A DNA stretch of 64,000 nt from Algoriphagus aquimarinus (GTDB taxonomy: Bacteria > Bacteroidota > Bacteroidia > Cytophagales > Cyclobacteriaceae): NCBI RefSeq assembly GCF_007997215.1, contig NZ_VORW01000001.1, forward strand, positions 310,001-374,000. The letters are read 5' to 3'. A model generated the notes under the pieces. That model saw only the letters and a list, made by a program, of their open reading frames with translations. It searched no databases and had not been told where the DNA came from. Position 1 is the first letter of the stretch; every line of letters starts with the position of its first letter. Below are positions 3,647-56,745 of the stretch, one piece after another. Both the position numbers and the translations under genes were made by a program.

Positions 3647-3686
3647 TTATGTTAGGTCCAAGTCACGAAACTTGAACCTAACATAA
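3647..3686. terminator. Strong hairpin downstream of recX, probable terminator or processing structure
   Basis: Two 17-nt arms (3647-3663 and 3670-3686) pair with a single G-T wobble around a 6-nt loop; the left arm begins TTATGTTAGGT. There is no clear U-run after it, so intrinsic termination is uncertain. It lies about 120 nt past the recX stop, in a 330-bp region with no gene. Confidence 0.5.
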
Positions 3687-3786
3687 CACTTACACCAAAG
3701 GTATTCTGCGACCGCGACTGATCTTTGCGACTGAAAACTCAATACTAATATCATCCCAATGTTAAGTTTTGGATTACTATATGTTT

Positions 3787-3842
3787 TAATGTTACCAAAT
3801 TGTTAACTTTACGTAACACTGACCGTAACATTAGTAACATTA
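3787..3842 (+). promoter_or_regulatory. GTAACATTA repeat cluster upstream of the secreted transglutaminase-like gene
   Basis: A perfect tandem copy of GTAACATTA (3825-3833 and 3834-3842) sits just before the start codon at 3855. The inverted form TAATGTTAC lies at 3787-3795, with further GTTAAC and GTAAC units between. Such an array looks like binding sites for a regulator of the downstream gene. No protein partner can be named. Confidence 0.4.
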
Positions 3843-3854
3843 GCTTCATCCGAG

Positions 3855-4676
3855 ATGAAAAAAGCATTACTCACATTTATTCTAATCTTTGCATTCGGCT
3901 TCCTAGCCATGGCACAAGAGGCCGTGGGAATGTTGGAAGAGTTAAGCTTTGATAGCAATTCAGAAAAGGCTCTTTGGGAAGCTGGTCAGCAGAATCCATA
4001 TTTACTTTTTAGAGCAGTTCAAGCGGAAAAAGCCCCGTCAGATGAAAAATGGAATGAATTACTCGCTGAATTGGACAAGAAATTTAGTAGGAAAGGCACT
4101 CACCTGACTGTACTCCGCCAGGTTTTCGAAAAGTCACATCAGCAATTATTTAAGACGTATGAGCAACATTCCACCTTTAATGACATGTTGGAGCAAGGCA
4201 AGTTTGACTGTGTTAGCGGGTCTGCTGCCTTAGCATTGCTTTTGGATCGTTACAAATTTGAATACAAAGTAGTAGAGACTGATTATCACGTCTTCATAGT
4301 GGTGAATTATGAAGGAAAGGATATCATTTTGGAAAGCACGCTTCAAATAGGCGGAATGATCACAGCGCCATCAGAAGTCGCTTCATACCTTGAGGGATAT
4401 AAGGCTGATGATTCGGTTAAGCTAAAATCTCTCAATCAAAGATTGGGCGCACCAAAAATAGATTTATCAGATAATGCAATTTTCAGAAAAGTCAACCTGA
4501 CCCAGTTGGCAGGTTTGCAATATTACAATGATGCAATCTCACTTTTTAATGATCAGAGTTTCCAAAGAGCTTCACTGCAATTACATAAAGCACTTAAGCT
4601 TTACAACTCTGAGCGTATCGATGGACTTAAGGAATTAGCAGATAAGCAGGCAAATTTGTTAGCTAGCTCAAAATAA
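3855..4676 (+). CDS. Secreted transglutaminase-like (papain-fold) protein
   Basis: 273 residues with a clear signal peptide (MKKALLTFILIFAFGFLAMA, cut before QEA). After a helical region comes a cysteine at 119 (FDCVSGSAALALL), His145 in TDYHVFIVV and Glu160 in DIILEST. This C-H-D/E order and spacing is that of the transglutaminase-like cysteine-peptidase fold. The C-terminal 60 residues resemble a TPR-like helical pair (YYNDAISLFNDQSFQRAS). Substrate unknown. The gene is monocistronic, with a repeat cluster directly upstream. Confidence 0.6.
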   Translation: MKKALLTFILIFAFGFLAMAQEAVGMLEELSFDSNSEKALWEAGQQNPYLLFRAVQAEKAPSDEKWNELLAELDKKFSRKGTHLTVLRQVFEKSHQQLFKTYEQHSTFNDMLEQGKFDCVSGSAALALLLDRYKFEYKVVETDYHVFIVVNYEGKDIILESTLQIGGMITAPSEVASYLEGYKADDSVKLKSLNQRLGAPKIDLSDNAIFRKVNLTQLAGLQYYNDAISLFNDQSFQRASLQLHKALKLYNSERIDGLKELADKQANLLASSK

Positions 4677-4680
4677 AAAT

Positions 4681-4702
4681 GGCCTCCGTTGTATAGGAGG
4701 CC
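4681..4702. terminator. Hairpin terminator after the transglutaminase-like gene
   Basis: GGCCTCC (4681-4687) pairs with GGAGGCC (4696-4702) around an 8-nt loop, 5 nt after the stop codon. The T-run is better on the minus-strand side, so it may act in both directions. Confidence 0.6.
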
Positions 4703-4779
4703 AAGATCCGTTGGAACAATCACCCCTATTGTCCAATCAGTCTCTCGAAAAATAACCTTATCAAAGTTTCCTAGGTAAT

Positions 4780-4854
4780 TCAGGCCATTAATGCGGCAAA
4801 GAACCCTATAAGCAATGCTTTTCTAATCAAATCAATTATAACATCCTTTGTCAT
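4780..4854 (-). CDS. Possible 24-residue hydrophobic micropeptide
   Basis: ATG at 4854 to TGA at 4780 encodes a peptide with a charged start (MTKDVIIDLIRK) and a hydrophobic end (ALLIGFFAALMA). It lies between slyD and the 4681 hairpin, which has T-rich sequence on the minus side and could terminate such a transcript. No homologue recognised; this could be chance. Confidence 0.25.
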   Translation of the reverse strand: MTKDVIIDLIRKALLIGFFAALMA

Positions 4855-4913
4855 AGGTAGAAATACTTGTTCTCTCAAAAGTATCCTAACTTATCTAAGT
4901 GCGCTATACGACA

Positions 4914-4940
4914 AATGCCCTATTCTGAGAACAGGGCATT
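4914..4940 (-). terminator. Hairpin downstream of the SlyD-like gene
   Basis: AATGCCCT plus TTCT pairs with AGAA plus AGGGCATT, with one mismatch and a single-base loop, 9 nt past the stop at 4949. The T-run is weak on the minus strand, but position and stability fit a terminator. Confidence 0.6.
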
Positions 4941-4948
4941 GTAAATAA

Positions 4949-5464
4949 TTAGTGATGATGATGTCCATCTGGACCGTGCGCATGACCATGTTCGAGCTCT
5001 ACGGGTAGTGCATCTCGTACGGAGATTATTTTACCAGCAAAGGATAAATCGTATCCCGCCAATGGAGGATTAAAATCCATATGAACTCCAGTGTAATCTA
5101 TCTTGGTTATCTCACCACGAATCTGACCACCCTTATTGTCTTGCATAGGAATCACATTTCCGACACGTAAGAGATCCTTATTTACCTTTCCTTTTTCTTT
5201 GAAATTGGCTTTTGGAATAATGGTCTTTTTCTCCTCCATGTAATCTCCATAAGCATCATCAAAACCAAGATCTGCAGTAAATTCATCCCCGGCAGATTTA
5301 CCTAGCAATGCTTCTTCGAATTTCGGAAATACCTCGCCTGCATTAAATAGAAAGTAAAAAGGCTTATCCTCAGGTACAGTCTCATAAGGAACCATTCCTG
5401 TCTCACCATCATCTACCTTCAGGTCGTAGCATACCGCTACCACTTTGTTCTTTTCTACTTTCAT
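4949..5464 (-). CDS. SlyD-like FKBP peptidyl-prolyl isomerase
   Basis: 171 residues. An FKBP fold interrupted by an insert-in-flap region (about 70-125) is followed by the FKBP ending NPPLAGYDLSFAGKI. The tail is histidine-rich (HGHAHGPDGHHHH), as in metal-binding SlyD proteins. SlyD is a cytoplasmic prolyl isomerase/chaperone that can bind nickel or other divalent metals. It starts 20 nt downstream of the Wzi-like gene on the same strand and may be its operon partner. The histidine tail is native-looking, not a cloning tag. Confidence 0.9.
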   Translation of the reverse strand: MKVEKNKVVAVCYDLKVDDGETGMVPYETVPEDKPFYFLFNAGEVFPKFEEALLGKSAGDEFTADLGFDDAYGDYMEEKKTIIPKANFKEKGKVNKDLLRVGNVIPMQDNKGGQIRGEITKIDYTGVHMDFNPPLAGYDLSFAGKIISVRDALPVELEHGHAHGPDGHHHH

Positions 5465-5484
5465 ATCGTTATTTAATCTTTCTT

Positions 5485-7197
5485 CTAGCGGAATATATAA
5501 GCCAAACCTACTTGACCTACGAAATTCTTTCGGTCATATCCTGGAATAAAGTACTGATCTGGGCTGTTCTCCAAGTACCATTTATAATTCAGGGTATTTA
5601 CATATTGTAGTCGTGCATTAACCAAAATACTTCCAATCTTCCAATCTCCGATCAAGGAAGGAACCAGATCCACATATTTGTTTCTCCAATCTTTAGAAGC
5701 CTCGTATCTGTAATAATAGAAGTCATTGTTATAAACAATCCTTTCCATCTGGAAACCAATTCTATTCATTTTATTCACCCAGGCAAATTCCATGAAAATC
5801 ATATTACTAGCTGGGCCATTTCCAACTCCAAGCACCTGTCCATTGTGAGTATATCCATCCCTGACATAATCATGAATGTACCACGTATTTAAAGCTTTGA
5901 TATCATCTCTGATAGTCTGTCCTGTTTGGGTCATTTCTGAACTGATCTGGAAATAATGCCCTGGCTTTTTTAAGCTCATTAAGTGTGAAAATCCAAAAGT
6001 AAATGCTCGCCCAGATTCTGGAGTAATCATAAAGTCACTCAACTTGCGATCATTATCACGCGTGCCATATTCTCCATAGAATTCAAAGTGACCTTCTGGA
6101 CTTAGCCATCTGAAAAACCCGGAACTAAACTGCTGCCTCTTTTCTTGGATAGGATCCACGATATTCTGGGCTTTCTTTCTACCATTGAAAACTGGAAGTA
6201 TATCAGCTAATGATGAAACATCTCTACGGTACATCTGGCTGGTAGATCCGTAGCCAAGAAAAAGGCCCGGGACCCATTTCGGCTGGTAAGTCAAAACTAA
6301 TCCGGACATAAATCGCTTACTATTCTCAGGTTTTGGACTGTAGACGTTATTTTCTTGAATCCTGTAATCAGGCCATGGAGGCAAAAATCCAGAAGATTTC
6401 AAGAATCCACCAATCAGCTGTCCTTCAAAGGATCCAATTCCTGTTTTTACAGGTTTGCGTGTATTTGCTGTAAAGTGAATAAATCCTGGAGCATTATTTC
6501 CAAGTAGCAGTGAGCTCCTTCTTCCAGGCCCCCACCACAGATTTTCGGAAGAAATACCAAGTGAATACTCCTGAAAATTATAGCGTATACTGGACTGGCC
6601 TAAATACGCCCGTGTATATGAATCCTCGCCAAATCGCTCGGGCATATCTATTCGATTCATGTAGTCGTAATAGAAAAGAATCGTAGCCTGATGTTCAATA
6701 GGAAAGCCGTCATAGTCCTGGTTTTGAGCCATCAACAATTCCGGTTGAAACTGTAAACTAAAAGAACCATACTCCAAATATGCTCCAGGGCTAAGTATAG
6801 CCTGTATACCTCGATTTGGAATAAAAGCGCCATCGTTCACTCCAAAAGCATAGGTAGAGTTGTATTGAAACTTTGCAACGGCAGGCATCATCATGAATTT
6901 GCCTTTGTTATCCTTTCCGAAAATCTTATGAATTGTAGTAGCATTCATATCTACTACTGAACTATCTAAATCAAAACCATATTTTATCCCGAAGGCCGAA
7001 ACTGGATAAAGAGGCCGAATCATAAATGAGGAAGCGGAATCTATATCCCCCAAAAGTTGAGCTCTTCGCAGATAATCATCTAAAACTGGTGTACCAACAG
7101 GCACAGTCTGTCCCACCGAATAATTGCTTAATAAAAGAATCAGCAACCATGTCCCAAAAAAGCTAGTTAGAATATTCCTTGTCTTCATTATTCTCAT
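5485..7197 (-). CDS. Outer-membrane beta-barrel of the Wzi capsule-assembly family
   Basis: 570 residues. A signal peptide (about 1-29, MKTRNILTSFFGTWLLILLL...) precedes a barrel rich in alternating aromatic strands. It includes SENLWWGPGRRSSLLLGNNA, typical of Bacteroidota Wzi-family proteins, and ends in YIFR. Wzi anchors capsular polysaccharide at the outer membrane in Gammaproteobacteria; the exact role here is inferred. The start overlaps the upstream lipoprotein stop (ATGA), so translation is probably coupled. A second in-frame ATG three codons later (MKTRN) is equally plausible. wecB is divergent nearby. Confidence 0.85.
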   Translation of the reverse strand: MRIMKTRNILTSFFGTWLLILLLSNYSVGQTVPVGTPVLDDYLRRAQLLGDIDSASSFMIRPLYPVSAFGIKYGFDLDSSVVDMNATTIHKIFGKDNKGKFMMMPAVAKFQYNSTYAFGVNDGAFIPNRGIQAILSPGAYLEYGSFSLQFQPELLMAQNQDYDGFPIEHQATILFYYDYMNRIDMPERFGEDSYTRAYLGQSSIRYNFQEYSLGISSENLWWGPGRRSSLLLGNNAPGFIHFTANTRKPVKTGIGSFEGQLIGGFLKSSGFLPPWPDYRIQENNVYSPKPENSKRFMSGLVLTYQPKWVPGLFLGYGSTSQMYRRDVSSLADILPVFNGRKKAQNIVDPIQEKRQQFSSGFFRWLSPEGHFEFYGEYGTRDNDRKLSDFMITPESGRAFTFGFSHLMSLKKPGHYFQISSEMTQTGQTIRDDIKALNTWYIHDYVRDGYTHNGQVLGVGNGPASNMIFMEFAWVNKMNRIGFQMERIVYNNDFYYYRYEASKDWRNKYVDLVPSLIGDWKIGSILVNARLQYVNTLNYKWYLENSPDQYFIPGYDRKNFVGQVGLAYIFR

Positions 7198-7862
7198 TTC
7201 AAAGTAAGGGCTTCAACAGTTACTTCTGCTAGGGACCAAGATTCGTCACATAAAGGATCTGGTGAGTTTTTGGAGACTAAGTCTGAATTCATATAGATCC
7301 TTGTACTAGTATTACTATGTTCAATTATTTTAGAAATACTATATCTAGTAGTATAATTTGGGAATGCTCCAAAGAGACAAAGACCAGGCATGTTTGTTTG
7401 AATTGCGCCAGATTTAGGTCTATTCTGTTTGAAATAGGTATCTGGATACGATTGATATAGACAATAAGTGGATTCACAAGGCGAATTAGAAAAGGATGTC
7501 CTGAAAACCTCTTCATTATCTACACCAAAGAACCATTGATCTGGACCTCCAAGCCCGTCAGATGGATTTCCATCCCAGCTGTCATGGATGAGAATTTCTA
7601 GTGTTACTTTCAGTAGATTGTGAGAGGGCAATCCAGTAAGATTAACCGCTATTTCTTCATTATGATAATAGCCGACTACCGTATCATTTTGAAAAATAAA
7701 AAGCCTTGCATTTTCAAAACCCTCTAGATTTAAGTCTGAAAAGTTATTGGTATAGACCACTTTTTCTGATTCCAGCGTATCGGTACAAGAGAAAAATGAA
7801 ACTACGGTCGTAAGAAGTAAAAGGGCTTTCACTGCTTTTGGCCACTTATTGCAATCCATCAA
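7194..7862 (-). CDS. Lipoprotein upstream of the Wzi-like barrel, unknown function
   Basis: 222 residues with a lipoprotein signal: hydrophobic segment then SFFSC, so Cys26 is the predicted lipidated residue. The mature part is beta-rich and has six further cysteines or so, which suggests disulfides in the periplasm or on the surface. It overlaps the Wzi-like gene by 4 nt, so the two probably work together at the envelope. No family with a known function recognised. Confidence 0.75.
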   Translation of the reverse strand: MMDCNKWPKAVKALLLLTTVVSFFSCTDTLESEKVVYTNNFSDLNLEGFENARLFIFQNDTVVGYYHNEEIAVNLTGLPSHNLLKVTLEILIHDSWDGNPSDGLGGPDQWFFGVDNEEVFRTSFSNSPCESTYCLYQSYPDTYFKQNRPKSGAIQTNMPGLCLFGAFPNYTTRYSISKIIEHSNTSTRIYMNSDLVSKNSPDPLCDESWSLAEVTVEALTLK

Positions 7863-7968
7863 ATTCAGTTAGTTAAGAAAATATAGCATTGCAAAGAAAC
7901 AAAAAAGGAGCCAAAACAGACTTACCTAAAGAAAGCTTATTTCGGCCGAAATCTCCAAAAGGATTTGT

Positions 7969-51073: not shown

Positions 51074-51405
51074 AATTGGTTTGTTTTTCTTCTCTTGTAG
51101 CCAAACCGAGTGCCATGAGCGAAAATTATTTATTTCAACCTCCTCTAAAAGTAGCTTAATGGCTTCTATAGAGCTATTTAACAGTTTTTCACAAACCATA
51201 AGAAACGGAATAGGACTAAGATTACGACTTATCTCCGCGCCCTATTTCGGGTAATTATCTCCTCAATTATTGGGAAATAATTGAATCATATGTTCATATA
51301 CGCCCCCTTTTGGTATCCTTTCCATTCGAATGGTGGAATGATTGATTGAACGAGTAGGCTTTCATCTTTTTTATAATCTAGAGGATGAAGTCTAAGTCAT
51401 TAGTC
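51074..51405. other. 332-bp intergenic region between a beta-barrel gene and dnaE2-like gene end
   Basis: No gene seen. It contains TCAATTATT-ggga-AATAATTGA (51263-51284) and the perfect palindrome CCATTCGAATGG (51322-51333). The former could be a terminator-like stem for the polymerase gene, although it is about 120 nt past its stop. Confidence 0.4.
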
Positions 51406-54372
51406 TTATACAGATACAGTAGAAAGTACCGATCTCGGCGGCACCTCCTTCTTATCCTTCAGTCCCACTTTCCACATGGCGTGTACATCTAGCGCAAAGG
51501 CACCAAATTCCTCTATGACTTTGCCGCGCATTTTGTAAAAACCCTTGCCTTGAAATGGGTAACGCCTTAGAGAATTGGGGAAATGAACGGTATCCAGCCA
51601 ATCACCTTTTGCATCGAGAAAAGTCCCAAAAGCCATATGCTCTCGCTTGATCGTACGCACATCTTTAGTAGTGACGAGCTGGCCGAGAACCTCAATTTGT
51701 TTCCCAAGTAAGCTTGGAAACTGATCCGCCAGCGTCATTCCTTTGCCGTCATTGGCTGCAAGCCGAAACATATCCGTCAGCGCAAACCCCAATACATTGA
51801 TCTCGTCAAGCGCGTCTTCCAGCGGGTAATCCGGGAAATCCGGTAAAGTGAAGTCTATCGCAGGCTCTTTGAAAAGCGCAGGAGAATCTGGAAGAGCTGT
51901 CATATGCTTTTGCGCGAAATTGGCTTTCCAAAGCAGTTTTTTCTTTCCCAGTCCTGTAAATCCAAAAGCTCCCACACTGATCAGGATGTTCAGTTGCTCC
52001 GGTCCTGCATGCGTGCGCTCGATGAAGTCTTCCAAACTCAGGTAGGCGCCATTGGCATGTCTTTCTTCCAGGATTAAGTCACAAAGCTTCTTTTCCAGTT
52101 GCTGCACATGGATCAAGCCTACAAAAACCTCTTCGCCACGTATGTTGGTGAGGTAGTCGCTGCGATTCATACAAGGCGGATTTACCTTTGCACCGGTGCG
52201 TTTAAGTTCGTGGAAATAGAATTCCGTGCTGTAAAAACCTCCGAAATTATTGATCACCGCCACCATAAATTCCATGGGGAAATAGGTTTTCAGATACAGA
52301 CTCTGGTAGCTTTCCACTGCGAAAGAAGCTGAGTGTGCCTTGGAAAAGGAATAGCCTCCGAAAGATTCCATTTGTCGCCAGACTTCGGCTGCGACAGTTT
52401 CTTCATGTCCGAGTTCCTTACAGTTTTTGAAGAATTTTTCACGGATCTCATTAAAGCGATTATGTGATCTGTACTTGCCGGACATGGCACGACGAAGAAT
52501 ATCCGCCTCGCCCATGTCCAAGCCAGCAAAGTGATGGGCTACCTTAATCACATCTTCCTGATACACCATCACGCCGAAGGTTTCCTCCAGCAGTTCCTTC
52601 ATCTTGGGATGCAGATAGATGATCTTTTCTGGATCATGAAATCGCTCGATGTATTGCTTCATCATCCCTGACTGCGACACGCCCGGACGGATAATGGAGC
52701 TTGCAGCTACCAGCGTGAGGTAATCGTCACATTTCAACTTGGTGAGGAGCTGCCGCATGGCCGGACTCTCGATGTAGAAGCATCCGATGGTATCTGCTTT
52801 TCGGATTTGCTCCGCCACCTTAGGATCGCTCATGAACTCCTCTACTCGATGGATATCGATGTCAATCCCCCGGTTTTTCTTTACCAGCCGAATTGCTTCC
52901 TTGATATGTCCCAACCCGCGCTGACTGAGGATATCGAGCTTGAACAAGCCGATTTTCTCTGCCAAAAACATATCTATCTGCGCTGTGCAAAAGCCCTTTG
53001 GCGGCAGATCATTTACAGTGTATTGGTAAATAGGCTTCTCGGAAATCAGCATCCCGCCAGGGTGAATGGAAAGATGATTCGGGAAATTCTCCAACAGCTG
53101 TCCGTACTTCAGAATCGTTCGCTGGATTTTATCCTCATTCATCGGCTGATCCTTGCCTCGGACGAGCTGGTCGATTTCTTCTTTTGGTAGCCCAAATACT
53201 TTTCCCAGCTCACGGATTACCGCTCTGCGCTGAAAGGTGCTGTACATTCCCAGCAGGGAGACATGATCTTTGCCGTAGCGCTTGAAAATGTAATCGATGA
53301 CTTCATCCCGGTCTTTCCAGGAGAAATCTATGTCAAAATCCGGCGGGGAAGTCCGGTGTGGATTCAGAAATCGCTCGAAATACAAATCGAGTTTGATAGG
53401 ATCCACATCGGTGATTTTCAGGCAATAAGCCACAATAGAATTGGCACCGCTTCCTCGGCCTACGTAGTAAAAACCACGGTTTTGGGCATAGCGAATCACG
53501 TCCCAGACGATCAGAAAATACGCATTGAAATTCAGGTCGTTGATGATTTTCAGTTCTTTGACCACACGGGCTTTGGCTGTAGGGTTGTTCCCATAGCGGT
53601 AGTGAAGGCCTTCGAAGGCTAGCTTTTCCAGCAAAACCCGATCGTCTTCCCCGCTGGCACTGTAGTGCTTTTTGTTTTTGTCAGTGTGGAGTTCGGTTTT
53701 GATTTCACAGGCATCGATCAGCTGTAGCGTGTTGCTGATCATGCCGGGGAAATTCCGAAAAGCACTCATCAACGCTGCTTCCGAAACGAACATTTCATCC
53801 GGCGAAGCAAAGTCCTTTTCTCCCAACTTACTGATCAGCGTATTTTTGCCAATGGCTCGAAGCAGACGATGGATGTTGAAAGCCGTTTTGTCCTGAAAAG
53901 TCACCGGGTGGCGGATGATCCATTTCTTCGGAAAGGCTTCCACTTCCTGCTTTTTGATGCGATTCAGCTCGCTGGCCAGTACACCGATGAACTCATGTTC
54001 TTTTAGATTTTGCGCAGTAAAGCTTCCAAAAGGATAAATAATCAGCACTTGGGAAAAGCAATCCGGACGCTCAGGGAAAATCAAGTCTTGCTGTAAATGC
54101 TGAGACAAAAATCGATTGATTTCGAGTAGACCCGCGTCATTTTTCGCCAGTAACACATAGCAGAGCGTATCCTCGTTCCGGATCTCAGTTCCGACGATGG
54201 GTTTGATTTTCCTTTCCCTACAAAAATCCACAAAATCCCAGAGATCGGCCGTGCTATTGATATTGGTGAGGCCAAGGGAAGATAGGCCGCGCTCGGCTGC
54301 AGCATTCACGAGTTTCTCGGTGCTAAAGGTGCCGTAGCGATAGCTAAACCAGGTTTTACAAGTAATAAACAT
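51406..54372 (-). CDS. DnaE-type DNA polymerase III alpha subunit (ImuC/DnaE2-like)
   Basis: 988 residues, shorter than replicative DnaE. A PHP domain (1-270) lacks the metal-binding HxH motif: it begins FITCKTWFSYRYGT and has LTNINST where active PHPs have a DH pair. The polymerase active site is intact, with PDFDIDFSW near 345 and a third Asp in FKLDILSQRG. A helix-hairpin-helix segment and a C-terminal OB fold (EVLGQLVTTKDVRTIKREH) follow. It starts 1 nt after the Y-family polymerase stop, so the two are one operon. Confidence 0.88.
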   Translation of the reverse strand: MFITCKTWFSYRYGTFSTEKLVNAAAERGLSSLGLTNINSTADLWDFVDFCRERKIKPIVGTEIRNEDTLCYVLLAKNDAGLLEINRFLSQHLQQDLIFPERPDCFSQVLIIYPFGSFTAQNLKEHEFIGVLASELNRIKKQEVEAFPKKWIIRHPVTFQDKTAFNIHRLLRAIGKNTLISKLGEKDFASPDEMFVSEAALMSAFRNFPGMISNTLQLIDACEIKTELHTDKNKKHYSASGEDDRVLLEKLAFEGLHYRYGNNPTAKARVVKELKIINDLNFNAYFLIVWDVIRYAQNRGFYYVGRGSGANSIVAYCLKITDVDPIKLDLYFERFLNPHRTSPPDFDIDFSWKDRDEVIDYIFKRYGKDHVSLLGMYSTFQRRAVIRELGKVFGLPKEEIDQLVRGKDQPMNEDKIQRTILKYGQLLENFPNHLSIHPGGMLISEKPIYQYTVNDLPPKGFCTAQIDMFLAEKIGLFKLDILSQRGLGHIKEAIRLVKKNRGIDIDIHRVEEFMSDPKVAEQIRKADTIGCFYIESPAMRQLLTKLKCDDYLTLVAASSIIRPGVSQSGMMKQYIERFHDPEKIIYLHPKMKELLEETFGVMVYQEDVIKVAHHFAGLDMGEADILRRAMSGKYRSHNRFNEIREKFFKNCKELGHEETVAAEVWRQMESFGGYSFSKAHSASFAVESYQSLYLKTYFPMEFMVAVINNFGGFYSTEFYFHELKRTGAKVNPPCMNRSDYLTNIRGEEVFVGLIHVQQLEKKLCDLILEERHANGAYLSLEDFIERTHAGPEQLNILISVGAFGFTGLGKKKLLWKANFAQKHMTALPDSPALFKEPAIDFTLPDFPDYPLEDALDEINVLGFALTDMFRLAANDGKGMTLADQFPSLLGKQIEVLGQLVTTKDVRTIKREHMAFGTFLDAKGDWLDTVHFPNSLRRYPFQGKGFYKMRGKVIEEFGAFALDVHAMWKVGLKDKKEVPPRSVLSTVSV

Positions 54373-54373
54373 C

Positions 54374-55522
54374 TTAGGCGCGGGTTAGGGTGATGGCTCG
54401 GGTTAGGCTTTTTTCGCCGTAGCGGTTTTTGATCCAGTCGATGGCTTGGTACAGGTTTACACCTTCTTCGGTGTCTTGGAAAATGTCGATTTGCTGATGG
54501 CCTTGTACGAGGTGACTGACTTTCACTCCGACGAGACGTACGAGCATTCGCTTTTCATAGAGCTTCGCAAAGAGTTCCTTGGCTCTTTCTAGAAGTACCT
54601 CATCGGAACTGGTGTAGGAAATAATGCACTGACGGCTGACTGTGTCGAAATTGGCATAGCGGAGCTTCACCGTGATACAGCCACAGAGCTTTCGTTTTTG
54701 GCGAAGCTCAAATCCTACTTTCTCCGTCATCCGTACGAGTTGGCTATTCAGAAAAGCCATGTCGATGGTGTCCGATTCGAAGGTGTTTTCGGTGCCTATG
54801 CTCTTCTGCTCGGTGTAGGGAATCACAGGGGATTCATCAATTCCATTAGCTTTTCGGGAAAGGTCGATTCCTGATTTTCCTAGGAGATTTTGCATCATCC
54901 GTGGAGGAATCTCGCTCAGCAGTTTGATACTTTCCACGCCCATCCGCTCCAGCAGTGCGGAGGTTTTTTCGCCCACTCCCGGCATTCTTCGGATGGGAAG
55001 TGGCGCGAGATAGGGCTTTTCATTTCCAAAAGGAATTGTGGTCTGTCCGTTTGGTTTGGCGTCATGTGTGGCTACTTTGGATACGAGTTTGTTTACTGCC
55101 AAAGCACAGGAAATCGGTAATCCTGACTCTCGAACGATCCTTTCCCGCAGTTCCTTGGTGAATTTTTCACAGCCAAAAAACCTATCCATTCCCGTCATAT
55201 CGATGTAAAACTCATCTATAGAAGCTTTCTCCATCAGAGGAACCTGCTCCTGAATGATTTCTGTAACCAGACGTGAATTCTGGCTGTAGCTGTCGTGATC
55301 GCCTTTGATGTAAAATGCAGAAGGGCAAAGCCTCCGCGCCAACTTCATCGGCATGGCGGAATGCACGCCGAATTTCCGAGCCTCGTAACTGCACGAAGCC
55401 ACCACGCCCCGGTCGGAGCTACCGCCGATGATGACGGGTTTGTCATTGAGGGCACTGTTTTTCAACCGCTCCACAGACACGAAAAATGTGTCTAGATCCA
55501 AATGCACGATATGCCTTTCCAT
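54374..55522 (-). CDS. dinB: Y-family DNA polymerase (Pol IV/UmuC-like)
   Basis: 382 residues. Catalytic residues are intact: Asp9 in HLDLDTFFVSVE, and Asp103/Glu104 in SIDEFYIDMTG. This differs from ImuB proteins, which lack them. A helix-hairpin-helix (PIRRMPGVGEKTSALLERMG) and a little-finger domain follow, then QIDIF, a likely beta-clamp-binding motif, and a short UmuC-like tail (RYGEKSLTRA). It performs translesion synthesis and is followed by the DnaE2-like gene 1 nt later. Confidence 0.92.
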   Translation of the reverse strand: MERHIVHLDLDTFFVSVERLKNSALNDKPVIIGGSSDRGVVASCSYEARKFGVHSAMPMKLARRLCPSAFYIKGDHDSYSQNSRLVTEIIQEQVPLMEKASIDEFYIDMTGMDRFFGCEKFTKELRERIVRESGLPISCALAVNKLVSKVATHDAKPNGQTTIPFGNEKPYLAPLPIRRMPGVGEKTSALLERMGVESIKLLSEIPPRMMQNLLGKSGIDLSRKANGIDESPVIPYTEQKSIGTENTFESDTIDMAFLNSQLVRMTEKVGFELRQKRKLCGCITVKLRYANFDTVSRQCIISYTSSDEVLLERAKELFAKLYEKRMLVRLVGVKVSHLVQGHQQIDIFQDTEEGVNLYQAIDWIKNRYGEKSLTRAITLTRA

Positions 55523-55538
55523 TTCTCAGATTACTTGC

Positions 55539-55561
55539 TATATTTGATAGTATTAGTATCA
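55539..55561 (+). promoter_or_regulatory. -7 box and overlapping dyad operator of the LexA-like repressor gene
   Basis: TATATTTG at 55539-55546 matches the -7 consensus for the plus-strand repressor gene. It is overlapped by TGATAGTATTAGTATCA at 55545-55561, which matches its reverse complement at 14 of 17 positions. The site lies between the divergent dinB start (55522) and the repressor start (55592), so one operator could control both. Confidence 0.6.
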
Positions 55562-55591
55562 TTTTATTGTCATTAATTGTATCGAATAAAA

Positions 55592-56401
55592 ATGGGAAGT
55601 CAAAGCTTTTTCTGGGCGGCCAATCTGAAATTTCTCAGAAAGCGACGCAAATTGAGTCAGGACATGCTAGCTGAAAATCTTGGCATGACTCGCGCCAAAC
55701 TGAATGCGCATGAAAATGGGCATAGTAAGTCTCCTGCTATCGAGGATTTGCTGTTGTGTGCAGATTACTTCCGGATGAGTGTGGATACGTTGCTGCGGGT
55801 AGACCTGTCGAAGCTCAGCGAACTGAAAATCCGTGATCTGGAAGCTGGAAATGATGTGTTTTTGAGTGGCTCGAAAGTTCGGATTCTGGCCACCACCGTG
55901 AGTTCAAGTAATGAAGATAATATAGAGCTTGTCCCGATCAAGGCGAAAGCTGGCTACTTGGGAGGTTTTGGAGATCCGGAGTATTTGAGTACACTGCCTG
56001 TTTTCAATCTGCCAAATCTGCCAAAAGACAAGAAATATCGAATGTTCCAAACCGAAGGAGACAGCATGCTGCCCATTGCGGATGGCGCGTATGTGATTGG
56101 CTCGTATTTGTCCGAGTGGCGACTTGCCAAAGAAACTCCCTGTGTGGTGGTGACGGCAAGTGAGGGGATCAGCTTTAAGATGCTGAGTTTTCAGGCCGAG
56201 GAAAGAAACTTTTTACTACGCTCCCTGAATCCTGTCTATACGCCATATAAAGTCTCTGCGGAAGAGGTTCGGGAGATCTGGAAATTTGAATACTATATGA
56301 GTGATGACTTTCCGCAGGAACCATTGACACTGCAGCAAGTCGGAATTGAGATCTCGGAGATTAATAGGAAGCTGGGGTTGATGCAGAAGGGTGAGTTGTA
56401 A
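55592..56401 (+). CDS. LexA-like repressor: XRE HTH plus S24 peptidase domain
   Basis: 269 residues from ATG at 55592; a TTG five codons upstream is less likely. An XRE-type HTH (about 10-65, LSQDMLAENLGMTRAKLNAH) is followed by an S24 domain. An Ala120-Gly121 pair (IKAKAGYLGGFGD) fits the self-cleavage site, Ser158 (EGDSMLP) and Lys196 (ISFKMLS) form the catalytic dyad, 38 residues apart as in LexA. It is probably cleaved when RecA filaments form, releasing the divergent polymerase operon. Confidence 0.85.
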   Translation: MGSQSFFWAANLKFLRKRRKLSQDMLAENLGMTRAKLNAHENGHSKSPAIEDLLLCADYFRMSVDTLLRVDLSKLSELKIRDLEAGNDVFLSGSKVRILATTVSSSNEDNIELVPIKAKAGYLGGFGDPEYLSTLPVFNLPNLPKDKKYRMFQTEGDSMLPIADGAYVIGSYLSEWRLAKETPCVVVTASEGISFKMLSFQAEERNFLLRSLNPVYTPYKVSAEEVREIWKFEYYMSDDFPQEPLTLQQVGIEISEINRKLGLMQKGEL

Positions 56402-56745
56402 GGGGTGTCTCTCGCGGCGGCGCAACGGCGCAGCGAAGGTTTTGTAAAGTGTCCCGCGAATGCGCAGAGGAACAATGAAGAATTTGTAACCTTGGAGTGT
56501 AGCCCTGAGTAAGAAAAATTTACAAAAGGAATATGACTGTGTCAGCCTGAGCGAAGTCGAAGGCTCTTTTAAAGTAAAAATTATTGTCCTCGACTTCGCT
56601 CGGACTGACACGATTTGCTGTGAAAAATATAATCCGTCATTAGTAGCAGAGTCGAAGGGTTATTTCTTGCGGCGACACAGCGAAGGATTAGGGTTTCCAA
56701 CTGTTTGTTTTACAGCGACGCTCTCGATAGTTATTACAAGTTTGC
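56402..56745. other. 344-bp gene-free spacer between convergent genes, rich in degraded repeats
   Basis: No gene seen. Two related GC-rich strings (CGCAGCGAAGG near 56430 and ACAGCGAAGGA near 56680) and the inverted repeat at 56539-56611 suggest an accumulation site for dispersed repeats. Confidence 0.5.
56539..56611. repeat. Dispersed-type inverted repeat (GTGTCAG...GAGCGAAGTCG)
   Basis: The left arm GTGTCAGCCTGAGCGAAGTC (56539-56563) pairs with the right arm 56588-56611, which contains CGACTTCGCTCGGACTGACA; they differ at three or four positions and are separated by 24 nt. I have seen this word recur in Bacteroidota intergenic DNA; that is memory, not a search. Confidence 0.6.

Follow-up and report, generated by a model that had tools for sequence, protein, structure and literature searches.

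A PolY-DnaE2 cassette of Algoriphagus aquimarinus, probably a self-repressed SOS-type mutasome without ImuA and ImuB on a 5-kb insertion

The window analyzed here is a stretch of 64,000 nucleotides from Algoriphagus aquimarinus (NCBI RefSeq assembly GCF_007997215.1, contig NZ_VORW01000001.1, positions 310,001 to 374,000 of the forward strand), in which three genes at 51406-56401, about 5 kb in all, encode a DnaE2-like polymerase, a Y-family polymerase (PolY) and, divergently from this pair, an XRE-S24 repressor. We consider it probable that the trio is a compact SOS-type translesion-synthesis cassette, free of ImuA and ImuB, repressed by its own product, derepressed by DNA damage and carried on an insertion of about 5 kb. 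The gene order, the conserved residues of the encoded proteins, the paired sites at the promoters, the empty site in sister genomes and the lack of any genome with both types of arrangement among 59 of the genus are the observations on which we build. The source genome comprises 5.16 Mb in 56 contigs and, judged by DnaE2, its nearest named relatives among the matches listed are A. locisalis (92% identical) and A. yeomjeoni (91%).

An open-frame check found the three frames where the initial annotation had placed them, with the XRE-S24 gene divergent and a single base (54373) separating the DnaE-like and Y-family frames, as it had also stated. The repressor more likely starts at the ATG at 55592 than at the TTG at 55577, because an ATG is found there in four close relatives (L009-L012). 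The coordinates of all features are collected in Table 1.

Table 1. Features of the cassette, of its surroundings and of the other compact arrangement in the genus (window positions unless a genome and contig are named)
Feature	Position	Strand	Remarks
DnaE2-like (C-family) polymerase	51406..54372	-	988 aa; open frame, domain and alignment evidence
Y-family polymerase (Pol IV-like, PolY2-like)	54374..55522	-	382 aa; catalytic residues kept
RecA-NT-like motif IDWIKNRYGEKSL	54404..54442	-	PolY residues 361-373, near the C-terminus
Beta-clamp-type motif QIDIF	54479..54493	-	PolY residues 344-348
Candidate operator O1 TGATAGTATTAGTATCA	55545..55561	.	17-bp dyad, 7/8 pairs complementary, centre 55553
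Candidate operator O2 TGTCATTAATTGTATCG	55568..55584	.	degenerate, right half kept, centre 55576, 23 bp from O1
XRE-S24 repressor (non-canonical LexA type)	55592..56401	+	269 aa; A120-G121, S158, K196
Repressor predicted scissile bond A120-G121	55949-55954	+	from homologue alignment
Repressor S158	56063-56065	+	
Repressor K196	56177-56179	+	
Insertion relative to sister genomes	at least 51393-56423, at most 51263-56745		5.0 to 5.5 kb
Inverted repeat, presumed REP-like	56539..56611	.	22-nt arms, 91% complementary, near the right end of the insertion
Other compact arrangement	G022:C23:118983-123848; G454:C62:102722-106803		

The repressor carries an N-terminal helix-turn-helix (HTH) domain (HTH_3, PF01381; 34.6 bits against a cut-off of 23), and matches to CI- and SinR-type structures fit an HTH of the CI type. 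Its S24 domain scores under the Pfam cut-off (19.3 against 23.3 bits), and the assignment is supported, despite that score, by fold comparison and conserved residues. A structure search had lambda CI as its first match (E 4e-7, template modelling (TM) score 0.29 by query length), followed by LexA, and the C-terminal domain matches those of CI and LexA by fold. The serine and lysine of the putative catalytic dyad are present in all 71 repressor homologues; at the position aligned with the scissile bond, 46 of these have Ala-Gly, 24 have Ala-Ser and one has Met-Gly. The Ala-Ser variants belong to 24 other Algoriphagus repressors (L014-L037).

The Y-family protein contains the IMS, IMS_C and IMS_HHH domains in a family search, and its residues D9, D103 and E104, which we take to be the catalytic ones, align with those of E. 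coli DinB; the statement of the initial annotation that this polymerase keeps its catalytic residues is thereby borne out. The motif near its C-terminus resembles the start of RecA of the same genome (IDKLDKTYGKGTV), and a loose regular expression, written after the sequence had been seen and distinct from the profile of the published authors, matches 69 of 70 PolYs (that of the window included) and the RecA start itself; among shuffled tails it matches 0.9%, and it does not match the second DinB of the genome. Likewise, a loose clamp-motif expression matched all 70 PolYs, six of them through another string (QRRML), so that 64/70 are counted. In the DnaE protein, the domains PF07733, PF17657, HHH_6 and PHP were found; D345 and D347 (PDFDIDF) and D480, presumably the metal-binding catalytic aspartates, align with the E. 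coli and Taq alpha subunits and are invariant across 14 aligned DnaE2 proteins (that of the window and 13 relatives). With the NCBIfam error-prone polymerase model (cut-off 939), this DnaE2 scores 506.8, against 1355.7 for the imuABC DnaE2 of the sister genome G014; it therefore does not belong to the imuABC type, and it fits the DnaE2B type.

Elsewhere in the genome, a second DnaE with an open frame of 1435 aa is taken as the replicative DnaE1. There are one RecA-family gene and two IMS genes, namely the cassette PolY and one DinB, and therefore the genome is without ImuB and, as far as the RecA family model shows, without ImuA (the NCBIfam ImuA model was not run), in agreement with the initial annotation, which had seen no imuA. 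A classical imuABC reading of the cassette was rejected on the same grounds, as no ImuA is found by the RecA model and PolY appears active.

The intergenic region between the repressor gene and polY is 69 bp long and contains TGATAGTATTAGTATCA, the candidate operator O1, which overlaps the TATATTTG promoter-like box of the repressor gene (55539-55546), presumably a -7 box. When intergenic regions of the own clade are scored with a matrix derived solely from the two G014 operators, O1 comes first and the site 23 bp further (O2) second in 9/9 regions, which represent eight distinct genomes or copies (two regions come from one genome); plain symmetry had given off-register pairs in these regions and no clean second site, which the G014 matrix revealed. 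From 71 such regions between repressor and polY, 49 were of usable length (60-420 nt) and 37 were left after removal of near-duplicates; 12 of these 37 contain two dyads whose centres are 23 bp apart, against a mean of 0.56 and a maximum of 3 in 200 shuffled sets. Other spacings show smaller excesses, the largest at 17 bp. Plain symmetry was rejected as a test for paired sites, since its excess appears at several spacings and not only at 23 bp, and a strict rule (TG..CA ends, at least 5/8 pairs complementary, 23 bp), fixed after the plain-symmetry results had been seen, was used instead. Under this rule, 20 of the 24 regions from other Algoriphagus carry the pair, and one locus each also passes at 20 and at 29 bp. 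Among the Bacteroidota examined, a part shows such paired sites 23 bp apart.

The same spacing is found in front of a different set of polymerases. In G014 (L044:7982-14534), a repressor of the same family, which groups with the own clade in the tree (98/91; bootstrap not settled), is divergent from imuA-imuB-dnaE2, the region between them containing dyads at a spacing of 23 bp, and that genome gave no DnaE2 of the window type and no PolY2 match. In Chitinophaga relatives, TGCTAATTTTGTTAGCA, which contains CTAA-N5-TTAG, lies just upstream of the repressor gene. From the comparison of the sites of the own clade, G014, other Algoriphagus and Chitinophaga, we infer a common operator frame TG-XXXX-N5-XXXX-CA in which the inner letters change. 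Strict paired operators, mostly TGATTA-N5-TAATCA, also accompany the repressor relatives L134, L136, L138, L140, L152, L160 and L179, and the L134-L179 relatives come from metagenome genomes titled Bacteroidales, where PMC8565304 reports both groups absent (here and below, statements on published papers refer to the portions of their text that were available). In the own genome, TGATANNNTNNNTATCA has 14 matches, ten within frames and four outside, one of these four being the cassette promoter; no DNA-repair gene was recognized beside the other three from the translation starts, which were read without a family search. A wider regulon of the cassette repressor in its own genome is not supported by these matches, though a looser one may exist.

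The best, albeit indirect, support for a single regulon comes from genomes in which the genes lie apart. DnaE2 is present in 57 of the 59 genus genomes, ten of which have the compact type of the window (five in two copies), and an earlier view that confined the trio to five genomes of the genus, and denied its other members a DnaE2 beside PolY, was accordingly too narrow. Two more, G022 and G454, have an adjacent arrangement in which DnaE2 precedes PolY, with the repressor divergent in G022; in 40 the two polymerase genes are dispersed, on different contigs in 31 (mostly drafts) and on one contig in nine, at least 6.3 kb and up to 1.8 Mb apart; just one of these genes was found in six, and neither in G014, which has imuABC. 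No genome among the 59 combines the compact and another type. In a sample of 22 of the 47 genomes with DnaE2 of another type, plus G321, a strict paired operator stands within 600 bp before 23 of the 23 non-adjacent dnaE2 genes tested, the pairs being the same as at the repressor-polY promoter; none occurs at 17 other spacings (17 to 34 bp) and none in 100 shuffled sets. With plain symmetry within 300 bp, 23 bp is also the commonest spacing (18/23 promoters). Most of these promoter pairs are at separate places in the genome; in G013 DnaE2 alone was found, and in G321 no PolY occurs within the 13-kb stretch seen. These operators in trans suggest that the repressor, PolY and DnaE2 belong to a single regulon.

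Conserved linkage, on which the initial annotation had made its proposal depend, was found in part. Of the 395 genomes of the class, 228 contain relatives of DnaE2 at E <= 1e-100. The 80 named loci are the best matches to the DnaE2 of the window among those in a longer, capped list, so that the sample is biased towards it; 68 of them have enough upstream sequence for counting. PolY lies on the same strand as DnaE2 in 55 (directly upstream in 37, directly downstream in seven), and the repressor is divergent upstream of PolY in 37, immediately adjacent in 24. The divergent trio thus recurs in many genera, but PolY and DnaE2 stand side by side in only 12 of the 59 genus genomes; even so, where dnaE2 lies apart, the genes tested keep the paired operator. 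In ten Chitinophaga loci (L113-L115, L119, L120, L123-L126, L172), about 1.5-1.7 kb, presumably another gene, separates repressor and PolY.

Several results weigh against this interpretation. At the loci counted, PolY occurs without a repressor being found in 18/68 and DnaE2 without PolY in 13/68. None of the nine intergenic regions of the own clade passes the strict paired test, half of O2 being degenerate, neither of the published motifs, GGA-N5-TCC and CTAA-N5-TTAG, is present between the repressor gene and polY, and in other genera only 9/38 regions pass. A spacing of 17 bp also exceeds the shuffles (9/37 against a shuffle maximum of 4). Before the non-adjacent dnaE2 genes, many spacings exceed the shuffles under plain symmetry, 16 and 20 bp reaching 15/23 each, and it is only the stricter TG..CA rule, set afterwards, that isolates 23 bp; moreover, the 23 promoters belong to related species of one genus and are not independent events. 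As for the proteins, DnaE2 falls below the NCBI cut-off for its name, the AlphaFold model of the repressor is of medium quality (predicted local distance difference test 72, predicted TM score 0.45), and its full-length matches to CI and LexA have low TM scores of 0.29-0.36 by query length.

Who controls the polymerases may also be asked in view of a second S24 repressor in the genome (C4:41432-42184), a paralogue 38% identical to that of the cassette, and most genus members searched hold a similar second match. It is improbable, in our judgment, that this protein runs the polymerases within a global SOS regulon, or by cross-talk, with the local repressor as a minor or redundant autoregulator. 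Such an arrangement would agree with a tree, subject to a long-branch warning, in which the C4 repressor clusters with repressors whose promoters hold CTAA-N5-TTAG, with a weak TGAT-N9-ATCA dyad (TGATGTTAAAAGAATCA, L052:6449) at the start of its operon, and with the large SOS regulons of related families (PMC8565304). Nevertheless, CTAA-N5-TTAG was never found in the recA, second dinB and C4 stretches, it is missing, together with GGA-N5-TCC, from the cassette promoter as stated above, and the operator letters follow the clade of the local repressor. The same three stretches contain GGA-N5-TCC six times, never where these genes begin, and five weak TGAT-N9-ATCA dyads, one being that at the C4 operon start and another about 0.15 kb before the second dinB. 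Next to the C4 repressor (L052:4357-6191) lies a protein whose start we presume to be TIR/SEFIR-like. Still more remote is the idea that the S24 protein of the cassette is a phage-type or general stress repressor which stands beside the polymerases by chance, these not being damage-induced: the CI-like HTH and fold, the S24 score under the Pfam cut-off and the insertion with deviant base composition would suit it, yet no phage gene was recognized among the neighbours read (a family search covered two of them), the repressor accompanies PolY in many genera, and operators of the same kind on non-adjacent dnaE2 and on imuABC point to mutagenic polymerases as the shared theme.

The trio is one insertion of about 5 kb relative to sister genomes, because the genes that flank it are neighbours, within about 0.7 kb and without the cassette, in 12 of the 15 genus genomes searched with both flanks (G009, G010, G014, G016, G017, G018, G019, G021, G023, G024, G026 and G029, seven of whose empty sites were compared base by base); in G015, G032 and G033 the left flanking gene was not found. 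Similarity to the loci of eight relatives, one genome being counted twice, ends at the ends of the trio, and similarity to a ninth, L108, stops inside the repressor gene. This locus, in Lunatibacter salilacus (3660-7940), holds a decaying related cassette with a broken repressor frame and, in this assembly, a split DnaE2 frame, and still has operator-like dyads upstream. Horizontal spread of the cassette is likely: its three genes have 47-49% guanine plus cytosine (G+C) against 41% in the flanks, seven other copies have 47-49% against 40-45% in their own flanks, and in G009 the cassette genes are 85-86% alike whereas the DnaE1 locus is at 79%. That the trio was instead moved within the genome, or lost from the site in the other species, is rather unlikely in the light of these values and of empty sites that include genomes of the dispersed type, even though the DnaE1 locus of G017 (84%, one piece 89%) is about equal to its cassette genes (83-88%) and that of G019 and G021 (82%) close to theirs (83-90%). 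This alternative also draws on the absence of a recognized integrase or transposase within 51263-56745, where beyond the trio only overlapping or short frames are listed and which consequently does not qualify as a self-mobile element, and of any convincing terminal repeat or target duplication at the insertion ends.

Taken as a damage-controlled cassette, the locus would work as follows. In the undamaged cell, two 17-bp operators, arranged in tandem at a distance of 23 bp within the divergent promoter, would be occupied by the S24 repressor; operator conservation suggests that the bound protein would shut off both its own gene and the polY-dnaE2 operon. Upon DNA damage, RecA filaments are predicted to make the repressor cleave itself at A120-G121, with S158 and K196 as the catalytic dyad, and the genes on both sides would become derepressed; residue conservation, the fold and tests published for relatives lead one to expect this. 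The RecA-NT-like tail of PolY may then hold this polymerase to RecA, and QIDIF may hold it to the clamp; together with DnaE2, a combination modelled in print, it would copy past lesions as a mutasome free of ImuA and ImuB. Within the genus, the compact cassette may have displaced the dispersed version. The initial annotation called the cassette self-contained, which holds in part, since RecA and the sliding clamp have to be supplied from outside it.

In a wider and more tentative sense, to which we give somewhat less than even chances, the Bacteroidota may possess a dedicated mutasome regulon apart from global SOS control, in which the repressor and a fixed two-operator code of 23 bp survive the exchange of operator letters and of polymerases (PolY2-DnaE2B or imuABC), and of which the 5-kb Algoriphagus cassette would be a portable form replacing the resident dispersed version. 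The ImuA-free PolY-DnaE2 mutasome in print was derived from gene neighbourhood, co-occurrence and models, and the paired operator shared by non-adjacent polY and dnaE2 adds indirect support for one regulated system. Two 17-bp sites 23 bp apart also offer a handle for finding regulons in a phylum whose SOS control was recognized only in 2021, and a repressor of its own would explain how a mutator cassette could move between genomes without being permanently switched on.

Parts of this system are already in print, and it is of a known kind; of the proposal of an autonomous mutasome variant, what is not new is the PolY2-DnaE2 pair and the repressor family. PolY2 with DnaE2 was described computationally in Bacteroidetes in 2019, in operons that often include lexA (PMC6511836), and the non-canonical LexA family of this phylum was tested in 2021 in other species by electrophoretic mobility shift assays and mitomycin C induction (PMC8565304). 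The repressor of the cassette shares with that family the CI-like HTH, the S24 domain, the Ala-Gly bond and the Ser-Lys pair; in E. anophelis an error-prone polymerase gene is found opposite that of the repressor and mitomycin C induces both, and the inferred regulon of the published work includes DinB with DNA polymerase III alpha (PMC8565304). The candidate operator of the cassette differs: in place of GGA-N5-TCC or CTAA-N5-TTAG it reads TGATAGTATTAGTATCA and has a second site at a distance of 23 bp. Nevertheless, the same authors accept the diverged palindrome TTAC-AAATT-GTAA as the operator of one member, and hence the published motif is not strictly required for membership of the family; they report two or more sites at several promoters, with no fixed distance between sites found in the text available, and their main text nowhere mentions Algoriphagus (PMC8565304). 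In the open-licence literature, supplements excluded, no paper was found that deals with paired sites at 23 bp, with a co-regulated form whose genes are not adjacent or with the insertion in Algoriphagus, and it is the operators, this form and the insertion that are added here. The DnaE2B-PolY-RecA module named computationally in 2026 (PMC12926913) is likewise characterized by an active PolY with a RecA-NT motif linked to DnaE2, by a genome without ImuA and ImuB (ImuA, in our case, by the RecA model only) and by DnaE1 as replicase; its main text does not contain the words LexA or repressor, whereas the cassette described here has both a repressor and candidate operators. Finally, the cassette resembles the lexA-imuA-imuB-dnaE2 type in having an SOS-type repressor beside a Y-family protein and DnaE2, and differs from it in that no ImuA was found and no inactive ImuB is present here; the imuABC form behind a related repressor is that of the sister genome G014.

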